Assembly (NCBI GenBank): GCA_029975165.1
Contig: JARKPR010000049.1
Coordinates: 1 to 64,000, forward strand
DNA: 64,000 nt
Direction of reading: 5' to 3'
Source: Selenomonadales bacterium
GTDB lineage: Bacteria; Bacillota; Negativicutes; Sporomusales; UBA7701
Part shown: positions 18,935-53,305 of the stretch, in pieces
How positions within the stretch are numbered: the first letter of the stretch is position 1
How the letters are laid out: each line of letters opens with the position of its first letter
Translations under genes and position numbers: made by a program
The notes under the pieces: model-generated
The model's database searches: none
What the model saw: the letters and a program-made list of their open reading frames with translations, nothing else
Told to the model about the DNA's origin: nothing

Positions 18935-18962
18935 AAAACCGGGAGAAATATCTCCCGGTTTT
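18935..18962. terminator. Terminator of the hydrogenase operon
   Basis: AAAACCGGGAGA, 4-base loop, TCTCCCGGTTTT: a perfect 12-bp stem overlapping the last base of the selenoprotein stop codon. It supports the stop at 18962 as the real end of the operon. Confidence 0.9.
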
Positions 18963-19249
18963 TATACGAGTTTCCAGCCTTCAAGATGCAATGACCTGAA
19001 CCCGAAAAAATTCTGCAGCTTGATGACAAGCGGGTACGGCGAGTCGAGGTCGTACGGCAGATGCAGTTCAACGCCGTCGACCGTCAGCCGGCGGTACTCG
19101 CCGGGTTGTTTCGGCAGCCCCAGTCCCACGGACGGGGTAAGTTTGATCCGCCCTCAGCAGAGGCTCATGCCCTGAAAAGAGGCGAGATGGGCGACGCCGC
19201 CGCGGGCGAGGATATAGTCGCGGGCCTTGGCGTCGACAGCCAGGTTCAT
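18962..19249 (-). CDS. CC/Se-motif selenoprotein with in-frame TGA (selenocysteine) at codon 32
   Basis: Reading from ATG 19249 (ribosome-binding site AGGGGGAGGTG, 18 bases after the hupH-like stop), codons 1-31 encode MNLAVDAKARDYILARGGVA through MSLC. Codon 32 is TGA (19154-19156). The same frame then runs 63 codons more to TAA at 18962-18964, just at a strong terminator. The second part (GRIKLTPSVGLGLPKQPGEY, VDGVELHLPYDL, FFGFRSLHLEGWKLV) has the P-S-V..G.P..Y..VDG...L..EGW layout of the small CC/Se-motif (seleno)protein family, where Cys is followed by Cys or selenocysteine. Total 95 residues with Cys31-Sec32. A SECIS-like hairpin lies at the expected distance. The function is unknown. 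Being last in a hydrogenase operon suggests a redox or metal-handling role in maturation (inference). The alternative is a disrupted gene. Confidence 0.8.
19118..19156 (-). promoter_or_regulatory. UGA codon plus bacterial SECIS-like stem-loop
   Basis: After the UGA (19156-19154) come 16 bases, then CCCCGUCC-GUG-GGAC-U-GGGG (19137-19118). This is an 8-bp stem with one bulged U and a GUG apical loop. The loop begins 24 bases after the UGA, with G in its first position. Bacterial SECIS elements recognised by SelB usually have a loop 16-37 bases from UGA with an early G and a short upper stem, so this fits. It is part of the coding sequence. Confidence 0.6.
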
Positions 19250-19267: not shown

Positions 19268-19651
19268 TTAGAGTTCCGCCAGCCGCTCTTGCAGCGCGGC
19301 CAGGCCGCTTTGCGTATCCTCCGGCTGAGCGGCGGCGATGGCCGGGAAAGCGCCGACCTCGATCGTCTCGAGGAGCGGTCGGCGGGCCTGGTCGTAGAAT
19401 ACGCCGTACCATACGCCGGCCACGCCGCTTTCCAGCCATTCGGCGGGCTCGGCGCTGTTTTCGATGGCGATGCGGACCCCGCCCTGGCCGAGGCAGTCGC
19501 GGATGGCTTGGCGCTCGTCCTGGGTGAGGCCTATCTTGTCGATGTAGATGGTCCAGCTCTCGCCGCCGGCCAGGAATCGCTCCACGGCTGCGGCAATTTC
19601 GGCCAGCACCGCCTTTGCCTTGTCGGTCGCCCCGTTCCCGGCCGTCAGCAT
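19268..19651 (-). CDS. Stand-alone HupH/HyaF C-terminal-domain hydrogenase maturation protein
   Basis: A 127-residue protein matching only the conserved C-terminal region of HupH/HyaF: WTIYIDKIGLTQDERQAIRD, VRIAIENSAEPAEWLESGVA, then GVWYGVFYDQ and LLETIEVGAFPAI. Proteins of this family assist maturation of the small or large subunit of uptake [NiFe] hydrogenases. Typical members are about twice as long, so this is a short form. The ATG overlaps the protease gene stop by 7 bases, so the two are translationally coupled. Confidence 0.75.
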   Translation of the reverse strand: MLTAGNGATDKAKAVLAEIAAAVERFLAGGESWTIYIDKIGLTQDERQAIRDCLGQGGVRIAIENSAEPAEWLESGVAGVWYGVFYDQARRPLLETIEVGAFPAIAAAQPEDTQSGLAALQERLAEL

Positions 19652-20142
19652 GCGCTCACCGCCACCTGCCAGGCGGCCAGTTCGGCCACCACCGCCGCTA
19701 CCGTTCCATCCACGGCCGCGGCGACGACGGGGGTAAGCTCAAGGCCCACGTCCAGCGACGCCGGCTGGACGCCGAGGATGACCACTTCCGCCACCGGCCG
19801 GCCGGTGGCGGCCAGCACGGCCAACACATCCTTGATGCCGAGCTCGTGCAGCGACACCTTTTCCCGGAAATACGCCTGGACCTCGTCGCCGGCCAGGCGG
19901 TAGAACGTCCCCGGCGGGCCGTCGCCGGCGATGGCGTCGACGACGATCAGGCGCCGCGTGCCGGCGAGGAAGCGCAGCAGATCCATGCCCAGCGTTCCGC
20001 CGTCCAGCACCTGGACGGCGGCCGGGAAGCGGTAGCGGCGGAGGAGTTCCTCCACCACTCTCACGCCGAAGCCCTCATCCTTGAGCAGTATGTTGCCGAT
20101 GCCCAGCACGGTCAGCGGCGGGGCATGTTGTTCCGTTGTCAT
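19645..20142 (-). CDS. hyaD: Hydrogenase maturation protease (HyaD/HybD family)
   Basis: A 165-residue nickel-dependent endopeptidase. The N-terminal LTVLGIGNILLKDEGFGVRV contains the Ni-binding Glu; VLDGGTLGMDLL and VVDAI follow, and a conserved His lies in KVSLHELGIKDVL. It removes the C-terminal extension of the large subunit after nickel insertion. AGGAG precedes the ATG. Its first 68 bases overlap the 3' end of the cytochrome b gene in another frame. Confidence 0.9.
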   Translation of the reverse strand: MTTEQHAPPLTVLGIGNILLKDEGFGVRVVEELLRRYRFPAAVQVLDGGTLGMDLLRFLAGTRRLIVVDAIAGDGPPGTFYRLAGDEVQAYFREKVSLHELGIKDVLAVLAATGRPVAEVVILGVQPASLDVGLELTPVVAAAVDGTVAAVVAELAAWQVAVSAC

Positions 20143-20830
20143 CGGCGATGTCTCCTATATCCGCAGGCTCGTGGGCGTAAAACTTGACGCCGGAAAACAT
20201 GCTCGACACCTCACCTTCGCGCTCCATGAAATCGGCGCGGATGGCCATGTAAACATGGACGATGGCGAACAGGACGATCAGCCAGGCCACGCAATGGTGG
20301 ACGATGTGGACGGTGTATTCGCCGCCGAGCAGGCTGTTGACCGGGCCGAAAAATTTCGCGCCCAGGCCGTTGGGGTTGACCATGGTGTACATGGCGAAGC
20401 CGGTTATCGCCTCGACGGCCAGGAGGACGTACACGGCCAGGTACGAGCTGCGGGCGAGGGAATTGCGCAGGTACGGCTCATGGGCGGACCGCAGGAAGAG
20501 GTAATGGAGCGTCGTGTCGACCAGCCCCCGCCAGTAGAGCGCCGTCCAGAACTTCGGCAGCAGGCGGTCGCCCTTGTTGACGGCGAAGCCGTAGACCCGC
20601 AGGATGAAGGCGAATACGAGCACATACGCGGCCGCGAAATGGACGTAGCGGATGTTGTTCATCGCCAGCGGCCCGAAGGCCGGCTCGCTGCCCCGCGAGG
20701 CGGCGAAGAACGGGTTGCCGATGTACAGGCCGGTGGCGAAGAGGATGACGACCGACCCGACCATCAGCCAGTGGAAAATCCTCAACCACGGGCTGTAGAC
20801 GTAGTATTCCTTCGACTGACCCTCATGCAT
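20075..20830 (-). CDS. hyaC: Ni/Fe-hydrogenase b-type cytochrome subunit
   Basis: A 251-residue integral membrane diheme cytochrome b. It begins MHEGQSKEYYVYSPWLRIFH and has the His-containing helices RIFHWLMVGSVVILFATGLY, NNIRYVHFAAAYVLVFAFIL, a middle helix pair and VHIVHHCVAWLIVLFAIVHV. It passes electrons from the periplasmic hydrogenase to quinone. GGGGGGAG precedes the ATG at 20830. The last ~25 residues, read across the start of hyaD, look like a non-conserved extension. Confidence 0.92.
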   Translation of the reverse strand: MHEGQSKEYYVYSPWLRIFHWLMVGSVVILFATGLYIGNPFFAASRGSEPAFGPLAMNNIRYVHFAAAYVLVFAFILRVYGFAVNKGDRLLPKFWTALYWRGLVDTTLHYLFLRSAHEPYLRNSLARSSYLAVYVLLAVEAITGFAMYTMVNPNGLGAKFFGPVNSLLGGEYTVHIVHHCVAWLIVLFAIVHVYMAIRADFMEREGEVSSMFSGVKFYAHEPADIGDIADDNGTTCPAADRAGHRQHTAQG

Positions 20831-20841
20831 GCTTCTCCCCC

Positions 20842-22737
20842 CTATACCTTGAAATAGGGATCGGTATGGACGACGCCCACTTCCTTGCCGGCGACGTCGT
20901 AGAGATGGGTGGCGCAGGCGATGCAGGGGTCGAAAGAGTGGATGGTCTTGAGAATCTCGAGCGGCTTGTCGGCGACCTTGACCTTGGTGTCGATCATGCT
21001 GGCCTCGTATGCGCCGTGGCCGGCCTTGTCGTCGCGCGGGCAGCCGTTCCAGGTCGTGGGCACGACGGCCTGATAGTTGGCGATCTTGCCGCCCTTGATG
21101 TTCACCCAGTGGCCGAGCGCGCCGCGCGGCGCCTCGTGCAGGCCGACGCCCTTGGCGTCCTTCGGCCAGGCGGCCGGGTCCCACTTGGCGGTGTTGGCGA
21201 CGGTGGTGTCGCCGGCGCGGATGTTCTTGATCAGCTTATCGAAGTAGTACTTGTTGATGTAGGCGTTGAGCTGGGCCTCCAGGCCGCGGACGGCCGTGCG
21301 GCCGACCATGGTGGGCATCCACACCGCGGGCGGCAGGCCGAGGACCTTGGAGACGGCCTCGATCTGGTCGACGACCATCTTTTCGGCCCAGGTCGGCTGG
21401 ATGACGCCCTTCTTGACCTTGGTGTAGACGATGATGTAGCGGGCCAGCGGGCCGACCTCGGCCATCTTGCCCCGCCATTTCGGGGTCTTGAGCCACGAGT
21501 ACTTGCCGGCCTCGTCGAGGTACTTCCAGGCCGTCTTGGTGCCTTCCTTGGGGCCGGTGTACTTCTGATCGGTCACGCCCTCGAAGGGGTGGAGGTCCTT
21601 GCCGGCCTGCGGGTAGGTGTACCAGGAATGCTCGACGCCCTCGGCGATGATCGCCGGGTCGGCGTAGTCCTTGCCGGACAGGTCGTGGTAAACGGCCGCG
21701 TCCAGGCCCTTGCCGAAGTTCTCGACGACGCCGTTGCAGCGCAGGAGCAGCTTCTTATGGAAGTCGCCGTTCGAAGTGCCGCTGTAGGGCTCGTCGGGGA
21801 AGTCGCCATAACCGAGCACGCGTTCTTTCGCCAGGCCGCCGCCGTCCACATAGCCCTTCTGGACGTACAGGTGGCCGATGGCCAGGAGGTCGGGCAGGTA
21901 AAAGTAGTTGACGAGGTTGATGGCCAGCATGATCGACTGGTCGACGACCGCCAGACGCTCGCTGTTGACCGGGGCGTTCATGTCGTTCATCGAAATCGCG
22001 CAGGGCATGCCGCCGACGATGTAGTGCGGGTGCGGGTTCTTGCCGCCGAACACGACATGGGAGCCGACCAGCTCGCGCTGCCTGTCGAGCATGTTGAGGT
22101 AGTGGCCGACAGCCATGAGATGGACTTCCGGCGGCAGCAGCTGATAATCGGGGTGATCCCACCAGTGGGCGGCGAAAATGCCGAGCTGGCCGCTGTCGAC
22201 GATCTGTTTGACTTTGGCCTGCACTGCTTTATAATATGCGGTCGTGGCCTTGGGGAAATCCTTCGGGTAGGCGTCGAAGCTGAAATCCATCGGCCCCGCC
22301 AGCGGCAGGGCGTATTTGTCGAGGACGGTGTTCTGCAACGCCGCGGTGGCGGCCGGGTCGGCCTTGAGGGCCTCGACCGGGCTGACCCAGTCGAGGGCGT
22401 GGAGATGATAGAAGTGGACGAGGTGGTCCTGGGCGATCTGGGTGGCGTTCATGATGTTGCGCATGTAGTTGGCGTTCTTGGGAATTTCGATGCCCAGGGC
22501 GTCCTCGACCGAGCGCAGCGAGGCGAGGGCGTGGACGGTGGTGCAGACGCCGCAGATGCGCTGCACGAATGCCCAGGCGTCGCGCGGGTCGCGGTCCTTG
22601 AGGATGAGCTCGATGCCCCGCCAGGCGGTGCCGCTCGACAGCGCGTCCTCCACCTTGCCGGTGGCTTCGTCTATTTTGAGTTCGACCCGCAGGTGGCCTT
22701 CAATGCGGGTTACGGGATCGACGACGATTCGTTTCAT
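20842..22737 (-). CDS. hyaB: [NiFe]-hydrogenase large subunit
   Basis: A 631-residue catalytic subunit. The N-terminal nickel ligands are in RICGVC (C62, C65), after VVDPVTRIEGHLRVEL. The C-terminal ligands are in DPCIACATH (C605, C608), and the HyaD-type protease would cut after H611 to remove a 20-residue tail. All four ligands are cysteine; there is no selenocysteine. The start overlaps the small-subunit stop as ATGA. The Tat signal on the partner indicates that the dimer is exported and oxidises periplasmic H2. Confidence 0.96.
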   Translation of the reverse strand: MKRIVVDPVTRIEGHLRVELKIDEATGKVEDALSSGTAWRGIELILKDRDPRDAWAFVQRICGVCTTVHALASLRSVEDALGIEIPKNANYMRNIMNATQIAQDHLVHFYHLHALDWVSPVEALKADPAATAALQNTVLDKYALPLAGPMDFSFDAYPKDFPKATTAYYKAVQAKVKQIVDSGQLGIFAAHWWDHPDYQLLPPEVHLMAVGHYLNMLDRQRELVGSHVVFGGKNPHPHYIVGGMPCAISMNDMNAPVNSERLAVVDQSIMLAINLVNYFYLPDLLAIGHLYVQKGYVDGGGLAKERVLGYGDFPDEPYSGTSNGDFHKKLLLRCNGVVENFGKGLDAAVYHDLSGKDYADPAIIAEGVEHSWYTYPQAGKDLHPFEGVTDQKYTGPKEGTKTAWKYLDEAGKYSWLKTPKWRGKMAEVGPLARYIIVYTKVKKGVIQPTWAEKMVVDQIEAVSKVLGLPPAVWMPTMVGRTAVRGLEAQLNAYINKYYFDKLIKNIRAGDTTVANTAKWDPAAWPKDAKGVGLHEAPRGALGHWVNIKGGKIANYQAVVPTTWNGCPRDDKAGHGAYEASMIDTKVKVADKPLEILKTIHSFDPCIACATHLYDVAGKEVGVVHTDPYFKV

Positions 22738-23834
22738 GCCTCAGGCCCCCTCACGATAGTGTCTTGCTGCTTGGACTGCTTATTTTTTTGCACCGCCGAC
22801 AGCGCCCCGTGGACGACGACCCCGGCGGCGGCAACGCCGGCCGCGACCATGCCGACCTTGTCGGCGTCGGCGATCGTGCCGGGCAGCGGGACGTCGGGCA
22901 GCCGTTCGTAGAACGGGCCGTTGTCCCAGAAGTTCGGGCTGCCGCAGGCAAAGCAGGGCGCCCCCGACTGGATGGGATACGACAGGCCGTTCCACCAGCG
23001 CATGTTGCCGCAGGAGTTGTAGGCCACCGGCCCGCGGCAGCCGACCTTGTACAGGCACCAGCCGGCCTTGGCCCCGGCGTCGTCGAATTTCTCGACGAAC
23101 ATGCCGGCGTCGAAAAACGGACGGCGGTAGCATGTGTCGTGGATGCGGTTGCCGTAGAACTGCTTGGGCCGGCCCTGGCCGTCCAAGGGCGGCAGCTGGC
23201 CGAACAGGGCGAAATGCATGACGACCGCCGTCATGACTTCGGGAATGGGCGGACAGCCCGGCACCTTGACGATCGGCTTGCCGGAAATGACGTCGCTGAC
23301 CGCCACCGACTTGGTGGGATTGGGCTTGGCGGCCTGGATGCCGCCCCAGGCGGCGCAGGAGCCGTACTCGACGATCGCCGCCGCGCCTGCGGCCGCTTCC
23401 TTCAGCGCCGCCAGGAACGTCCGGCCGCCCACCATGCAGTGGACGCCTTCATCGGCCAGGGGGACGCCGCCTTCGACGGCGAGGATGTACTGGCCGGCGT
23501 ACTTCTTCATCAATTCTTGCAGGTGATGTTCCAACGGTTCGCCGGCCGCGGCCGACAAGGTGTCGCTGTACTCGAGGGAAATCATCGTCAGCACTACGTC
23601 GGACGCCAGCGGCGACTGCGACCGGATGAAAGACTCGTCGCAGCCGGTGCACTCATGGCCGTGCAGCCAGATGACCGGCGGCAGCGTCTTCTTCTCGGCC
23701 GCGGCCACGACCTCCGGCAGCATGGCCGGCGGCAAGCCCAGCAGGCCGGCCACGGCCGCGCACGTTTTCAAAAAGGAACGCCGGCTGAGCCCCCGGGACT
23801 GGAATAACCCCCACAACGAATGGCAATGGTCCAT
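22734..23834 (-). CDS. hyaA: [NiFe]-hydrogenase small subunit, Tat-exported
   Basis: A 366-residue iron-sulfur subunit. The twin-arginine signal is LSRRSFLKTCAAVAGLLGLP (RR at 18-19). The proximal cluster region is HGHECTGCDESFIR, with EYGSCAAWGGI and VPGCPP. Medial/distal cluster ligands occur in HDTCYRRPFFDAG, YKVGCRGPVAYNSCGNMRWW and CFACGSPNFWDNGPFYERLP. A C-terminal hydrophobic helix anchors it to the membrane. The ribosome-binding site is GGGAGGGG. The 194 bases upstream (23835-24028) hold no gene and probably contain a promoter or processing region. Confidence 0.96.
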   Translation of the reverse strand: MDHCHSLWGLFQSRGLSRRSFLKTCAAVAGLLGLPPAMLPEVVAAAEKKTLPPVIWLHGHECTGCDESFIRSQSPLASDVVLTMISLEYSDTLSAAAGEPLEHHLQELMKKYAGQYILAVEGGVPLADEGVHCMVGGRTFLAALKEAAAGAAAIVEYGSCAAWGGIQAAKPNPTKSVAVSDVISGKPIVKVPGCPPIPEVMTAVVMHFALFGQLPPLDGQGRPKQFYGNRIHDTCYRRPFFDAGMFVEKFDDAGAKAGWCLYKVGCRGPVAYNSCGNMRWWNGLSYPIQSGAPCFACGSPNFWDNGPFYERLPDVPLPGTIADADKVGMVAAGVAAAGVVVHGALSAVQKNKQSKQQDTIVRGPEA

Positions 23835-24028: not shown

Positions 24029-25012
24029 TCAGCGGCCGCACCCGCACCACGGCTCTTCGGCCAGGTAGTCGCCGCCCGAATAATAGTAGGCCCGCGCCCG
24101 GCAGCCGCCGCAGACGTCGCCGAAGCCGCAGCGCCCGCAGCCGCCTTTGAGCGGCTGATGGCGCAGGTCGTGCAGCAGGCCGCTGTCCCGCCAGATATGG
24201 TCGAACGGCGTTTCGCGCACATTTCCGGCCTTCAGCGGCAGGTAGGGGCAGGGATGCACGTCGCCGTTGGGAAGGATGACGCAGTAGGCGGTGCCGGCGA
24301 GGCAGCCTTTGGTGAACCGGAGCTTGATGCCCTTCTGCCTGGCGATGCGCATGAACTGCGGGGCGCAGGTCGGCTTCAGCTCGATCGGCACATCGGCCTG
24401 CTTGGCGAGGATGCGTTCGAGCAACGCTTCGTACTGCGCGGTTTTGAGGGTGGTTTCCTCTATGTCCCGGCCGCGGCCGGTGGGCACGAGGAAAAAGATG
24501 TGGTGGGCCACCGCCCCCAGCTCGACGGCCAGGTCGGTGATCGCCGTGACCTCGTCTTCGTTCCAGTCCATGACCGTGGTGTGGAGCTGGAAGGGCAGGC
24601 CGGCCCCGCGGCAGGCGGCGATGCCCCGCATCGTCTCCTCCCACGCCCCGGCATAGCCGCGGAACTTGTCGTGCTTTTCCCGGTCGCGGCTGTCGAGGCT
24701 GATGCCGGCGCAGGCCGTGCCCGCCTCCTTGAGCGCGGCGGCCATCGCCGGCGTTATCAGCGTGCCGTTCGTGCCGAGGACGGGCCGCAGGCCGATGCGG
24801 CGGGCATGGCCGATGAGTTCGCCGATGTCGGACCGCAGCAGCGGCTCGCCGCCGCTGAAGACCATGATTTTGAAGCCGGCGCGGGCGATCTCGTCCAGCA
24901 GTTTTTTGCCTTCCGCCGTCGTCAGCTCGCCGGCCTCGGCGGCGCCGGCGTCGCGGTAGCAGTGGACGCAGCCGAGGTTGCAGGCCCGCGTGGTGTTCCA
25001 GGAGATGATCAT
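24029..25012 (-). CDS. ahbD: Radical SAM/SPASM heme-biosynthesis protein, AhbD/NirJ2 type
   Basis: A 327-residue radical SAM enzyme. The SAM-cluster motif is CNLGCVHC near the N-terminus (TTRACNLGCVHCYRDAG), with GGEPLLR as the SAM-binding loop. A C-terminal SPASM-like cysteine cluster contains CLAGTAYC, CGRCGFGDVCGGCRA and WCGCG. The opening MIISWNTTRACNLGC is typical of NirJ2/AhbD, which in the siroheme-dependent route decarboxylates Fe-coproporphyrin III to heme b. The ribosome-binding site GGAAGGAG lies inside the end of the preceding gene. It supplies heme for the nearby cytochrome b by inference. Confidence 0.85.
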   Translation of the reverse strand: MIISWNTTRACNLGCVHCYRDAGAAEAGELTTAEGKKLLDEIARAGFKIMVFSGGEPLLRSDIGELIGHARRIGLRPVLGTNGTLITPAMAAALKEAGTACAGISLDSRDREKHDKFRGYAGAWEETMRGIAACRGAGLPFQLHTTVMDWNEDEVTAITDLAVELGAVAHHIFFLVPTGRGRDIEETTLKTAQYEALLERILAKQADVPIELKPTCAPQFMRIARQKGIKLRFTKGCLAGTAYCVILPNGDVHPCPYLPLKAGNVRETPFDHIWRDSGLLHDLRHQPLKGGCGRCGFGDVCGGCRARAYYYSGGDYLAEEPWCGCGR

Positions 25013-25018
25013 GGCGGC

Positions 25019-26191
25019 CTACTCCTTCCAGTCGGCCAGATAGCAGGCCGGGTCCTCGCCCCACAGGTCGCCGCCGGCCGCCTCGGCCCTGATGCGGCAG
25101 CCGCCGCACAGGTCGCGGTAGCGGCACTCGCCGCAGCGGCCCTTGAGCTTGGCGGCCTTGCCGCGCAGTTCGCACAGGAATTCGCCGCAGTCCTGCCGCC
25201 AGATGGCGCTGAACGGGCGCTCGCGGACATTGCCGAGCGTGGTGTGGCCCCAGAACTGGCAGGCATGGACGTTGCCGCGCGGGTCGACGTTGGCCATCTT
25301 CTCGCCGGCCGAGCAGCCGCCGTGCATCGCCAGCAGCTGCCGCACCTCCTCCACCCTCTCCGGCTGGGTGCGTTCGATGTGCTGGAGGATATACACGCCG
25401 TCGGCATGGTTGTCGGTGGTCAGGATCTCGACTTCCACGCCGCGGCGGTGGAAATCGAGCGTCTTGTCGATCAGCAGGTCGATGGTGTGGCGCTTTTCCT
25501 CGGCGGTCGTGTCGAGGGCGGCCATATCCTTGCCGCGGCCGGCGTACACCAGATGGTACATGCAGAAGCGGTCGATCTTCTCCCGCTCCACCAGGGCGAG
25601 GATGTCCGGCAGCGTGTGGCGGTTGAGCTTGTTGACGGTGAAGCGGACGCCGGTCTTGTTGCCGGCGGCGAGGGAGTTGCGGATGCCCTGCAGCGTTTCG
25701 GCGAAGCAGCCCTTGCGGCCGCGGAAGAAATCGTGGACTTCCTCGTCGCCGTCGATGCTCACGCCGACGTACTGGAAGCCGGCCTCCTTGATGCGCCGCG
25801 CCGCCTCCGGCGTGATGAGCGTGCCGTTGGTGGAGATGACGGGGCGGATGCCGCTGGCGGCGGCGTAGGCGCCAAGGTCGTACAGGTCGTCGCGCAGCAG
25901 CGGTTCGCCGCCGGAAAAGAGCAGCACCGGCACCTTCATGCCCGCCAGGTCGTCGATGAAGGCCTTGGCCTCGGCGGTCGTGAGCTCACCGCCATAGGCT
26001 TTGTCCTCGGCTTCGATATAGCAGTGGCGGCAGCGCAGGTTGCAGCGGTTGGTCATGTTCCAGACCACGATGGGGGTGGCGTCGGACGAGAATTGCAGCA
26101 TGTGGGGCGGCAGATGGCGGGAGCTCCGGCCGTACTTGACGAGGTCGGAGACGGTCGCGGTGCCGCAGAGGAGTTTGGTGCAACCAATCAT
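25019..26191 (-). CDS. ahbC: Radical SAM/SPASM heme-biosynthesis protein, AhbC/NirJ1 type
   Basis: A 390-residue radical SAM enzyme that starts MIGCTKLLCGTATVSDLVKY, as NirJ1/AhbC proteins do. Its radical SAM motif is CNLRCRHC, with FSGGEPLLRDDLY after it. The C-terminal SPASM cluster includes GGCSAGEKMANVDPRGNVHA, then CGECRYRDLCGGCRIRA. AhbC removes the acetate side chains of 12,18-didecarboxysiroheme to give Fe-coproporphyrin. The start codon overlaps the ferredoxin stop (TAATG), so the genes are coupled. Confidence 0.87.
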   Translation of the reverse strand: MIGCTKLLCGTATVSDLVKYGRSSRHLPPHMLQFSSDATPIVVWNMTNRCNLRCRHCYIEAEDKAYGGELTTAEAKAFIDDLAGMKVPVLLFSGGEPLLRDDLYDLGAYAAASGIRPVISTNGTLITPEAARRIKEAGFQYVGVSIDGDEEVHDFFRGRKGCFAETLQGIRNSLAAGNKTGVRFTVNKLNRHTLPDILALVEREKIDRFCMYHLVYAGRGKDMAALDTTAEEKRHTIDLLIDKTLDFHRRGVEVEILTTDNHADGVYILQHIERTQPERVEEVRQLLAMHGGCSAGEKMANVDPRGNVHACQFWGHTTLGNVRERPFSAIWRQDCGEFLCELRGKAAKLKGRCGECRYRDLCGGCRIRAEAAGGDLWGEDPACYLADWKE

Positions 26192-52045: not shown

Positions 52046-53305
52046 TTAACTGAACTTCAGCACATTTCTCTTTCGCGGCATCACCGCGTCAATAACGTCG
52101 TCGACAGTGATGATGCCCACCAGCCTCTTGTCGGCGTCGGTCACCGGCACGGCCAGCAGGTCGTACTTGCGGATGAGGCTGATGGCGTCGTCGATCGGCG
52201 CCTCGTCGCCGACGGCGATGATGCGGGTCCGCATGATGGCGGACAGCCTGGTCTCCGGCTTGGCGATGATCAGCTCCCGCAGCGACACTACGCCGGCGAG
52301 ATGCTCCTCGGCGTCGACGACGTAGATGTAATAAATAGTCTCGGCCTCGGGAGCCAGCCGCCGCAGTTCATTGATAGTGGCGTCGGCGGTCAGGTTCTCC
52401 GGCAGGGCGATATATTCCGTGGTCATCAGGCTGCCGGCCTCGTTCTCCTCGTACTCGCGCAGCTCCTTGACCTCGGCCGCCTCCTCGTGCTCCATCAGGT
52501 CGAGCAGTTCCTCGGCCTTCTCGTCCGACAGCTCGTTGAGCACGTCGGCGGCGTCGTCGGAGGACATGATCTCCAGAATGTCGGCCGCCCGGTCCTTATC
52601 CATCCCTTCCAGTATGGAAGCCTGCATCTCCGTTTCCATCTCGGCCAGCGTCTCGGCCGCCTTCTCGTTGTCCAGCGTCTGGAAGATGGCCGACCGCTCC
52701 TGGGTGCCGAGGTCGCCGACGATCTGGGCGATGTCGTACGGATGGAGGGCGGCCAGCTTGCCCTGGGATACCGACAGCTTGATCGCCGACAGATCGGGGG
52801 TGATGAGGTCGACGTTGCCCCAGGAGATAAGCTTTTCCGGCAGGCTGCGGCCCATCATGCCGGCCACCCGCCGCAGGGTCCGCTCGGCCCCCAGCCTGCG
52901 CACCAGGCCGCGGAAGCCGATGTCCACGGCCACGAGGCGGAATTCGTCGTTGACCTGGGTGATCTTGAGGTCATTGACCCGCACGACCCTCGCCCCGTCG
53001 GTATCGACGATCTGGCGGTCGAGCAGGTCGCGGCGCAGGTAAAGCTCGTCGCCGGGCAGCATTGCCGCACGGACATCCTCGCGGACGATGTTGAGGGAGA
53101 CGATCTGTTTGTTGAGCAGGGCGACATGGGCCACACTCACGGCCACCGTCTCCCAGCGGCGCTTTACCTCCACGGCGCACACCTTGGGAAAGCCGGCCTC
53201 CGGCCTGATGAGCACGTCCTTGACCCGGCCCACCCGGTTGCCGACCTTGTCGATGCACAATTTATCGATAAGGTCGCTGACGAAGACCTCGGTAAAAGGC
53301 TGCAT
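52046..53305 (-). CDS. Soluble PRC-barrel + MgtE-N + CBS protein (no channel domain)
   Basis: A 419-residue cytoplasmic protein. Residues 1-75 and about 90-150 are PRC-barrel-like (VGNRVGRVKDVLIRPEAGFP). Residues 185-285 are a superhelical MgtE-N domain (LHPYDIAQIVGDLGTQERSA and IFQTLDNEKAAETLAEME). Residues 300-410 are two CBS domains (SLMTTEYIALPENLTADATI and YDLLAVPVTDADKRLVGIIT). It ends KFS with no MgtE transmembrane channel. Such proteins probably sense Mg2+ or nucleotide and regulate something else; the partner is unknown. ATG 53305 follows GAGGGGAG. Confidence 0.85.
   Translation of the reverse strand: MQPFTEVFVSDLIDKLCIDKVGNRVGRVKDVLIRPEAGFPKVCAVEVKRRWETVAVSVAHVALLNKQIVSLNIVREDVRAAMLPGDELYLRRDLLDRQIVDTDGARVVRVNDLKITQVNDEFRLVAVDIGFRGLVRRLGAERTLRRVAGMMGRSLPEKLISWGNVDLITPDLSAIKLSVSQGKLAALHPYDIAQIVGDLGTQERSAIFQTLDNEKAAETLAEMETEMQASILEGMDKDRAADILEIMSSDDAADVLNELSDEKAEELLDLMEHEEAAEVKELREYEENEAGSLMTTEYIALPENLTADATINELRRLAPEAETIYYIYVVDAEEHLAGVVSLRELIIAKPETRLSAIMRTRIIAVGDEAPIDDAISLIRKYDLLAVPVTDADKRLVGIITVDDVIDAVMPRKRNVLKFS

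Follow-up and report, generated by a model that had tools for sequence, protein, structure and literature searches.

A [NiFe]-hydrogenase operon that ends in the gene for a predicted selenoprotein of the CC/Se motif family

The closest described system is the CC/Se motif family of (seleno)proteins (NF041239), which a 2026 review tabulates, among selenoproteins both known and predicted, as a hypothetical protein with a predicted occurrence in Moorella; the accessible part of this review assigns the family neither a fold nor a function nor an operon (PMC13188914). The family being already listed, it must count as known, and the gene described here, located in a window of 64,000 nucleotides (the whole stretch of DNA analysed), is an added member. 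The product resembles the family in its whole-length match above the cut-off, the Cys-Sec pair, the PSVxLG motif and the alternation of Sec and Cys among relatives. It differs in genomic position: in the ten rows of its branch (CUGR), six genes follow HupH, one follows complex I-type genes and one follows radical-SAM genes. The A-type carriers IscA, SufA and ErpA (PF01521) are similar in predicted fold, tentatively in the position of Sec32 near IscA Cys35, and in offering a precedent for hydrogenase small-subunit supply: in E. coli, IscA and ErpA are required for the small subunits of the uptake hydrogenases (PMC3283652, accessible part). In contrast to these carriers, the window protein has neither a PF01521 match nor the C-terminal CxC, and it contains a Cys-Sec pair where they have a single Cys. 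The HesB-like selenoprotein model TIGR01911, which we take to be named after the same fold group, matched 2 of 84 relatives weakly (best 0.0053). Its Sec motif, according to the accessible part of the review, is UxGP (PMC13188914), as opposed to CU in the window protein. Finally, [NiFeSe]-hydrogenases likewise combine selenium and hydrogenase in one operon, but there Sec resides in a hydrogenase subunit (PMC13188914, accessible part), whereas here the large subunit uses Cys and Sec would be in a separate small protein. In open papers, and in the accessible part of the review, we did not find the hydrogenase-operon setting, the fold or the location of the SECIS within the motif in print for the CC/Se family. 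What is new is thus the operon setting, the predicted fold and the predicted SECIS inside the signature motif, the family itself being known.

The gene is located on the minus strand, with an RBS-like GGGGGAGGTGA 5' of its ATG and 18 bases between the ATG and the end of the HupH ORF (Table 1). Codon 32 is TGA and is immediately preceded by TGC; the following 63 codons (33-95) are open and end in a TAA that has one base in common with a 12-pair terminator-like stem. A preliminary description of this DNA had reported each of these elements, and all of them were recovered. It stated no strand, and a plus-strand reading of the same positions makes no sense. With the TGA read as Sec, the product has 95 residues with a Cys31-Sec32 pair and the C-terminus EGWKLV, while the standard code splits the frame into 31 and 63 codons. 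The gene had been called hidden, which is correct as far as this split is concerned, but an NCBIfam model and the listing in the review exist. The second half of the gene shows no decay: dN/dS 3' of the UGA was 0.30-0.45 when the window gene was compared with those of four congeners, probably an overestimate because the SECIS restrains synonymous sites.

Upstream of the gene and in the same direction are arranged, in this order, two radical SAM/SPASM genes, the small, large and cytochrome-like subunits of the hydrogenase, a maturation endopeptidase and HupH. The large subunit is encoded by a 631-codon frame without TGA and contains no Sec, in agreement with the earlier statement that the operon's own large subunit uses Cys. 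The cytochrome-like label rests on resemblance to such proteins and is presumptive, and the RRSFLK motif of the small subunit is one that we take to be Tat-like. Beyond the terminator are a DUF1540 gene and a chorismate mutase gene.

Table 1. Positions in the window of the selenoprotein gene, its signals and the upstream operon genes.
Feature	Positions	Strand	Basis or remark
Terminator-like stem-loop, 12 pairs, probable operon end	18935..18962	-	
CC/Se motif selenoprotein gene (predicted)	18962..19249	-	ATG at 19249; 95 codons + TAA (18964-18962); NF041239 63.4 bits, cut-off 40
SECIS-like hairpin, 8 pairs, bulged U, loop GUG, in PSVGLG codons	19118..19137	-	
In-frame TGA, codon 32, predicted to be read as selenocysteine; Cys31 before	19154..19156	-	Cys in same alignment column in 27/28 TGA-less members
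HupH C-terminal domain protein, 127 aa	19268..19651	-	PF04809 7.1e-24
HyaD/HybD-type hydrogenase maturation endopeptidase	19645..20142	-	PF01750; TIGR00140 above cut-off
b-type cytochrome-like membrane subunit (presumed), limits approximate	20075..20857	-	ORF; conserved at same place in relatives
[NiFe]-hydrogenase large subunit, C-terminal DPCIAC with Cys	20842..22737	-	PF00374 9.7e-182
[NiFe]-hydrogenase small subunit, RRSFLK motif	22734..23834	-	PF14720 + PF01058
Radical SAM/SPASM protein, NirJ2 type	24029..25012	-	TIGR04055 536.5 bits, cut-off 500
Radical SAM/SPASM protein, NirJ1/AhbC-like, under both cut-offs	25019..26191	-	TIGR04546 492.9 bits, TIGR04054 488.5 bits, cut-offs 650

The 95-residue product matched the NF041239 profile over its entire length (1-91 of 91), and the proposed membership in the CC/Se motif family was thereby confirmed. 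This was the sole NCBIfam match at E up to 1, a search in which the HesB-like TIGR01911 gave no match. The features of the family, C31-U32 and PSVGLG, are present, with column 32 and Pro39 nearly invariant among 84 aligned rows. Within the order, the family was found in 24 of 28 genomes with 101 matches, five of them in the window's genome (G000), where four contain one TGA. Removal of six matches (fragments or the frameshifted copy) left 95, of which 61 contain TGA and 84 were aligned; the 11 unaligned rows, left out by hand, are mostly close copies of kept rows (six without TGA, four with one and L106 with two). The window gene belongs to the ten-row CUGR branch (support 98/88). A scan of contigs with a profile of these ten rows returned five loci, and a phylum-wide scan found a family match in 75 of 398 genomes, including the window's own. 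Some individual members are unusual. L106 (G013:C128:200-490) contains two in-frame TGAs, the second inside its PSVRLG motif; L155 (G016:C78) is a frameshifted, apparently relic copy of the CUGR branch and has the sole TAA seen inside any match; and L067 (G000:C34:130668), a further TGA member, is located near a SaoE-like efflux gene (NF040736, under cut-off).

We analyzed the fold with AlphaFold2 models of the window protein (84 family sequences; pLDDT 81.8) and of a protein of the LIPGU branch (47 sequences; pLDDT 84.1). Foldseek placed IscA/SufA-type entries at ranks 1-7 for the window model (probability 0.77-1.00, best E 0.016, hence no match at E 0.001 or better) and at ranks 1-10 for the LIPGU model (probability 0.97-1.00, best E 6.8e-4). 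The leading entries were SufA, IscA, DsrR, AQ_1857, hi1723 and YneR, the last three of which we take to be HesB-like, followed by a drop to unrelated chains. VIA-align superposed IscA with the window model over 87 residues (Z 9.2, rmsd 3.3) and with the LIPGU model over 89 residues (Z 9.7, rmsd 3.2), with 4-18% identity over the structural alignments. At the level of sequence, PF01521 matched 8 of 84 family members (E up to 0.1, best 1.6e-5), while the window protein had no Pfam match, PF01521 included. A PDB sequence search with the family profile gave a single match (E 0.77) that was taken as chance. The hhalign comparison with E. coli IscA, SufA and ErpA was weak, with a probability of 38% for the 84 sequences and 2.6% for the ten closest, and the case for homology therefore comes mainly from the predicted fold. 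Judging by the models, an A-type carrier (IscA/SufA) fold is probable for this protein.

The weak full-family profile alignment (38%) sets Sec32 opposite IscA Cys35, presumably a cluster ligand. By this prediction, Cys31-Sec32 probably sits at the place of this first ligand of IscA. Note that pLDDT is low at the Cys-Sec loop (under 50 for residues 27-30), so the geometry of the loop is uncertain. Compared with the E. coli proteins, the window protein lacks the C-terminal CxC of A-type carriers, whereas the LIPGU branch has Cys-rich C-terminal tails, such as CGNCTSC. Perhaps the protein acts like an A-type carrier, as distinct from being one.

The genomic setting was compared among relatives. 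The CUGR-branch gene is directly 3' of HupH in 6 of its 10 rows (G000, G022, G023 and G025 of this genus, and G020 and G021 of another family), and likewise in L174, a Bacillota MAG. In these copies, from six genomes in two families of the order plus L174, the gene overlaps HupH or lies within ~35 bases on the same strand. Large subunits of [NiFe]-hydrogenase (E up to 1e-50) occur in 21 of the 28 genomes at 24 loci, some perhaps near contig ends; at six of these loci a family member lies no more than 6 kb away on the contig, and at 18 there is none in this range. Conversely, G007, G024 and G002 retain a CUGR-branch gene without a large-subunit match at this threshold, an absence that is uncertain for G007 and G024, as these genomes are 88% and 87% complete. 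In G007, the gene is directly 3' of the radical-SAM pair, with no hydrogenase. In G024 (L250/L078), three proton-antiporter-type (complex I-like) subunit genes directly precede it at the place where the congeners have hydrogenase, and the radical-SAM pair is kept ~10 kb upstream. The gene is located elsewhere, with no hydrogenase neighbor, in G019 and G002. Other branches of the family adjoin genes for metal efflux (heavy-metal P-type ATPase; SaoE-like, under cut-off), CoA-transferase/thiolase and D-amino-acid transaminase. We further examined 25 loci, 20 regions from the phylum-wide scan and five from the ten-row profile scan. Hydrogenase genes were directly upstream in two of them, L174 and L172, the latter being the G023 locus again; L175, a second occurrence of the G007 locus, has just the radical-SAM pair, and a weak match to the large subunit (36% over 125 residues) lies ~5 kb from L214.

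How might such a protein function? We propose that the 95-residue CC/Se selenoprotein would be translated as the last gene of the [NiFe]-hydrogenase operon, with the SECIS in the PSVxLG codons causing UGA32 to be read as Sec. The Cys31-Sec32 pair, probably at the place of IscA Cys35, might then serve as a thiol/selenol helper in the supply or repair of Fe-S clusters. Its clients would be Fe-S proteins of the same operon, namely the hydrogenase small subunit here and radical-SAM or complex I-type proteins elsewhere, and the constant feature would be the presence of Fe-S clients rather than hydrogenase itself. As a whole, with decoding and fold as stated and function as the leading guess, we regard this account as likely. 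Taken by itself, the assignment as an Fe-S or redox helper for the products of the operon is tentative, with chances somewhat below even; the protein might plausibly take part in the assembly of hydrogenase. Hydrogenase maturation or redox protection, the role that the preliminary description gave to the product, is likewise conjectural: most hydrogenase loci lack a family member within 6 kb, and three genomes have the gene without a large-subunit match. A bolder form of our proposal is that the CC/Se family constitutes a selenium-using branch of A-type carriers with Sec at the place of the cluster Cys, that CUGR proteins are dedicated Fe-S carriers or repair factors for Cys-type [NiFe]-hydrogenase (or for the complex I-type or radical-SAM proteins replacing it), and that PSVRLG serves at once as protein core and SECIS. 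We consider this version doubtful.

About as likely as the Fe-S helper reading is that the gene encodes a true selenoprotein, co-transcribed with the operon, that has a job of its own, as a general redox protein or a soft-metal binder acting through its vicinal Cys-Sec, and whose partners vary through shared regulation rather than chemistry. This alternative, itself short of an even chance, would account for the 18 unaccompanied hydrogenase loci, for the radical-SAM and complex I-like neighbors in G007 and G024, and for the metal efflux, CoA-transferase/thiolase and aminotransferase genes next to other branches. The tight, same-strand junction with HupH in six genomes and L174 argues against it, as does the fact that the alternative partners are likewise Fe-S or redox systems. 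For a selenoprotein family so far listed but uncharacterised, these results supply a fold hypothesis, a precise candidate SECIS within the signature motif, and a genomic setting that points to candidate partners, namely HupH, the small subunit of the Cys-type hydrogenase, NirJ1/NirJ2 and proteins of complex I type. If Sec does stand where A-type carriers have their cluster-binding Cys, Fe-S cluster trafficking would be a process in which selenium takes part.

We next consider the Sec machinery, since sel genes had been named as something to look for elsewhere in the genome. The assembly contains two different tRNA-Sec genes with TCA anticodon, at G000:C3:114974-115066 (L001) and 52777-52868 (L002). 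A TniQ gene (PF06527 3.9e-17) starts ~170 bases past the first of them, an arrangement that would fit the insertion of a Tn7-like element next to selC. A genome devoid of sel genes, which the preliminary description had named as a refutation, was thus not observed; selA, selB and selD were absent above cut-off in the window's assembly (100 contigs, 96.3% complete), and likewise in the congener G024. The other three of the four congeners (G022, G023, G025) carry selD, selB, selA and a gene that we take to be ParB inside ~26 kb; the genes separating ParB from selA include yyaC and hydF, identified in G025 by family search. The selD genes of these three genomes (L253-L255) contain an in-frame TGA. 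Contig C4 of G000 was considered as ending at the sel locus and was dropped, as the AspA-like gene there is just 43% identical.

If the assembly were true to the genome, selA, selB and selD would have been lost despite the presence of tRNA-Sec, here as in G024, and the gene would be a recent relic. However, neither G000 nor G024 has a close match to the ParB of the sel block (best 31% and 30% identity, respectively), and when the DNA of G000 was searched with 19.5 kb taken from the block of G025, the matches (40 of 452 candidates scored) were scattered and either short or diverged, none of them being syntenic. This suggests that the ~26 kb ParB-sel block is missing as a whole from the window's assembly and that gene loss is unlikely. 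Moreover, four family genes with TGA are open in G000, and the window gene is under purifying selection. We therefore regard a relic as very improbable.

The predicted SECIS was analyzed both in the single sequence and by comparison. The hairpin has a folding energy of -12.1 kcal/mol. Its loop starts 24 bases past the UGA and its stem 16 bases past it, so that the earlier placement of a hairpin at 24 bases holds for the loop and not for the stem. The bacterial SECIS model, as given in the Fig. 2 legend of the review, has an apical loop of 3-9 nt with G in the first two positions, an upper stem of 4-16 bp, 16-37 nt from UGA to loop and an MFE of at most -7.5 (PMC13188914). By this legend, the window hairpin, with its loop GUG, 8 bp plus bulged U, spacing and energy, fits the model, while hairpin offsets of 32 and 35 in some other branches of the family are beyond the model spacing. 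Folding of the single sequence was unremarkable relative to shuffles (z of 0.03, -1.00 and 0.27 in the three segments folded; -1.71 for the trimmed hairpin), and so was that of the TGA relative L174 (z -0.14). The evidence above chance for the hairpin is comparative.

Within 75 bases 3' of the Sec codon, a bulged-U hairpin with G in the first two loop positions was found in 38 of 56 TGA genes as compared to 2 of 28 others (~2% in dinucleotide shuffles). With or without the bulge, the counts were 53/56 and 4/28 (shuffles, 12% and 8%), three TGA genes having no hairpin of the kinds searched. With the Pro codon of PSVxLG used to fix the register, the complete set of six pairs was present in 51/56 TGA genes versus 4/28 others (p 2.7e-12, uncorrected for kinship); the five exceptions belong to a single branch (GGUACS) with a different, earlier hairpin. 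A T at the bulge position (44/56 TGA genes, 26/28 others) is not specific, since a codon of Leu/Phe/Val type has T in its middle position. Where the amino acid is fixed, codon choice is biased toward the hairpin. Val is encoded by GTG in 48/51 TGA genes and in 7/21 others, compared to 101/456 elsewhere in the TGA genes; the third base of Leu is G in 40/40 versus 9/15, and Arg is CGA in 34/46 versus 3/16. The base just before the Pro codon is C in 51/56 TGA genes versus 13/28 others. No difference was seen for G as the third base of Pro (47/55 and 19/26; p 0.22).

Because the rows are related, we also counted on the tree. Among 10 independent TGA/no-TGA pairs, the hairpin went with TGA in 6-7, against it in none, and was equal in 3-4 (median p 0.031); Val-GTG alone was not significant after this correction (median p 0.25). 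In the CCID branch, the TGA genes of G011, G015 and G017 have other hairpin letters, CCCGGCTGTACGCCTGGG, with the pairing kept (one was folded), while all five members of the genus share the same letters. L176, a Cys relative of the CUGR branch (LCCGNVDFGPSV), has no such hairpin in its DNA. In a synonymous-shuffle test of folding energy, the mean z was -0.78 for 56 TGA genes versus -0.12 for 27 others (p 0.001); we prefer the pairing and codon tests, as some Cys genes also fold strongly and the difference is modest. A set of 31 hairpins chosen by the hairpin itself was kept out of the evidence. Thus, comparison supports the prediction, made from sequence, that the hairpin in the PSVxLG codons is the SECIS for UGA32.

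The alignment column of the UGA agrees with this prediction. An in-frame TGA is present in 56 of 84 aligned members, 51 in the column of window residue 32 and five two residues earlier; the 28 TGA-less rows have Cys in the residue-32 column, except for one with a gap. Homologues with Cys or Sec at this position, the comparison suggested at the outset, were thus found. Given this column, the hairpin that accompanies TGA and the two tRNA-Sec genes, UGA32 is very probably decoded as selenocysteine, as had been proposed. If it were instead an ordinary stop, the gene would encode a 31-residue peptide or be a pseudogene; the standard-code frame does end at codon 32, but the conserved second half, the Cys counterparts, the codon bias of the SECIS and the absence of TAG or TAA from all 84 aligned rows, the lone TAA being that of the frameshifted G016 copy, leave this reading next to no probability. 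A changed code or a suppressor tRNA inserting another amino acid would open the frame too, but this is equally remote, as TGA is the first stop after the domain in 21 of 101 family matches by our own extraction (the G025 orthologue among them), the counterpart in the column is Cys, and the predicted SECIS is found in the UGA genes.

Two Cys members, L101 (G006:C6:46144) and L077 (G022:C1:498776), retain a bulged-U hairpin; perhaps Cys has recently replaced Sec in these genes and left a fossil SECIS behind.
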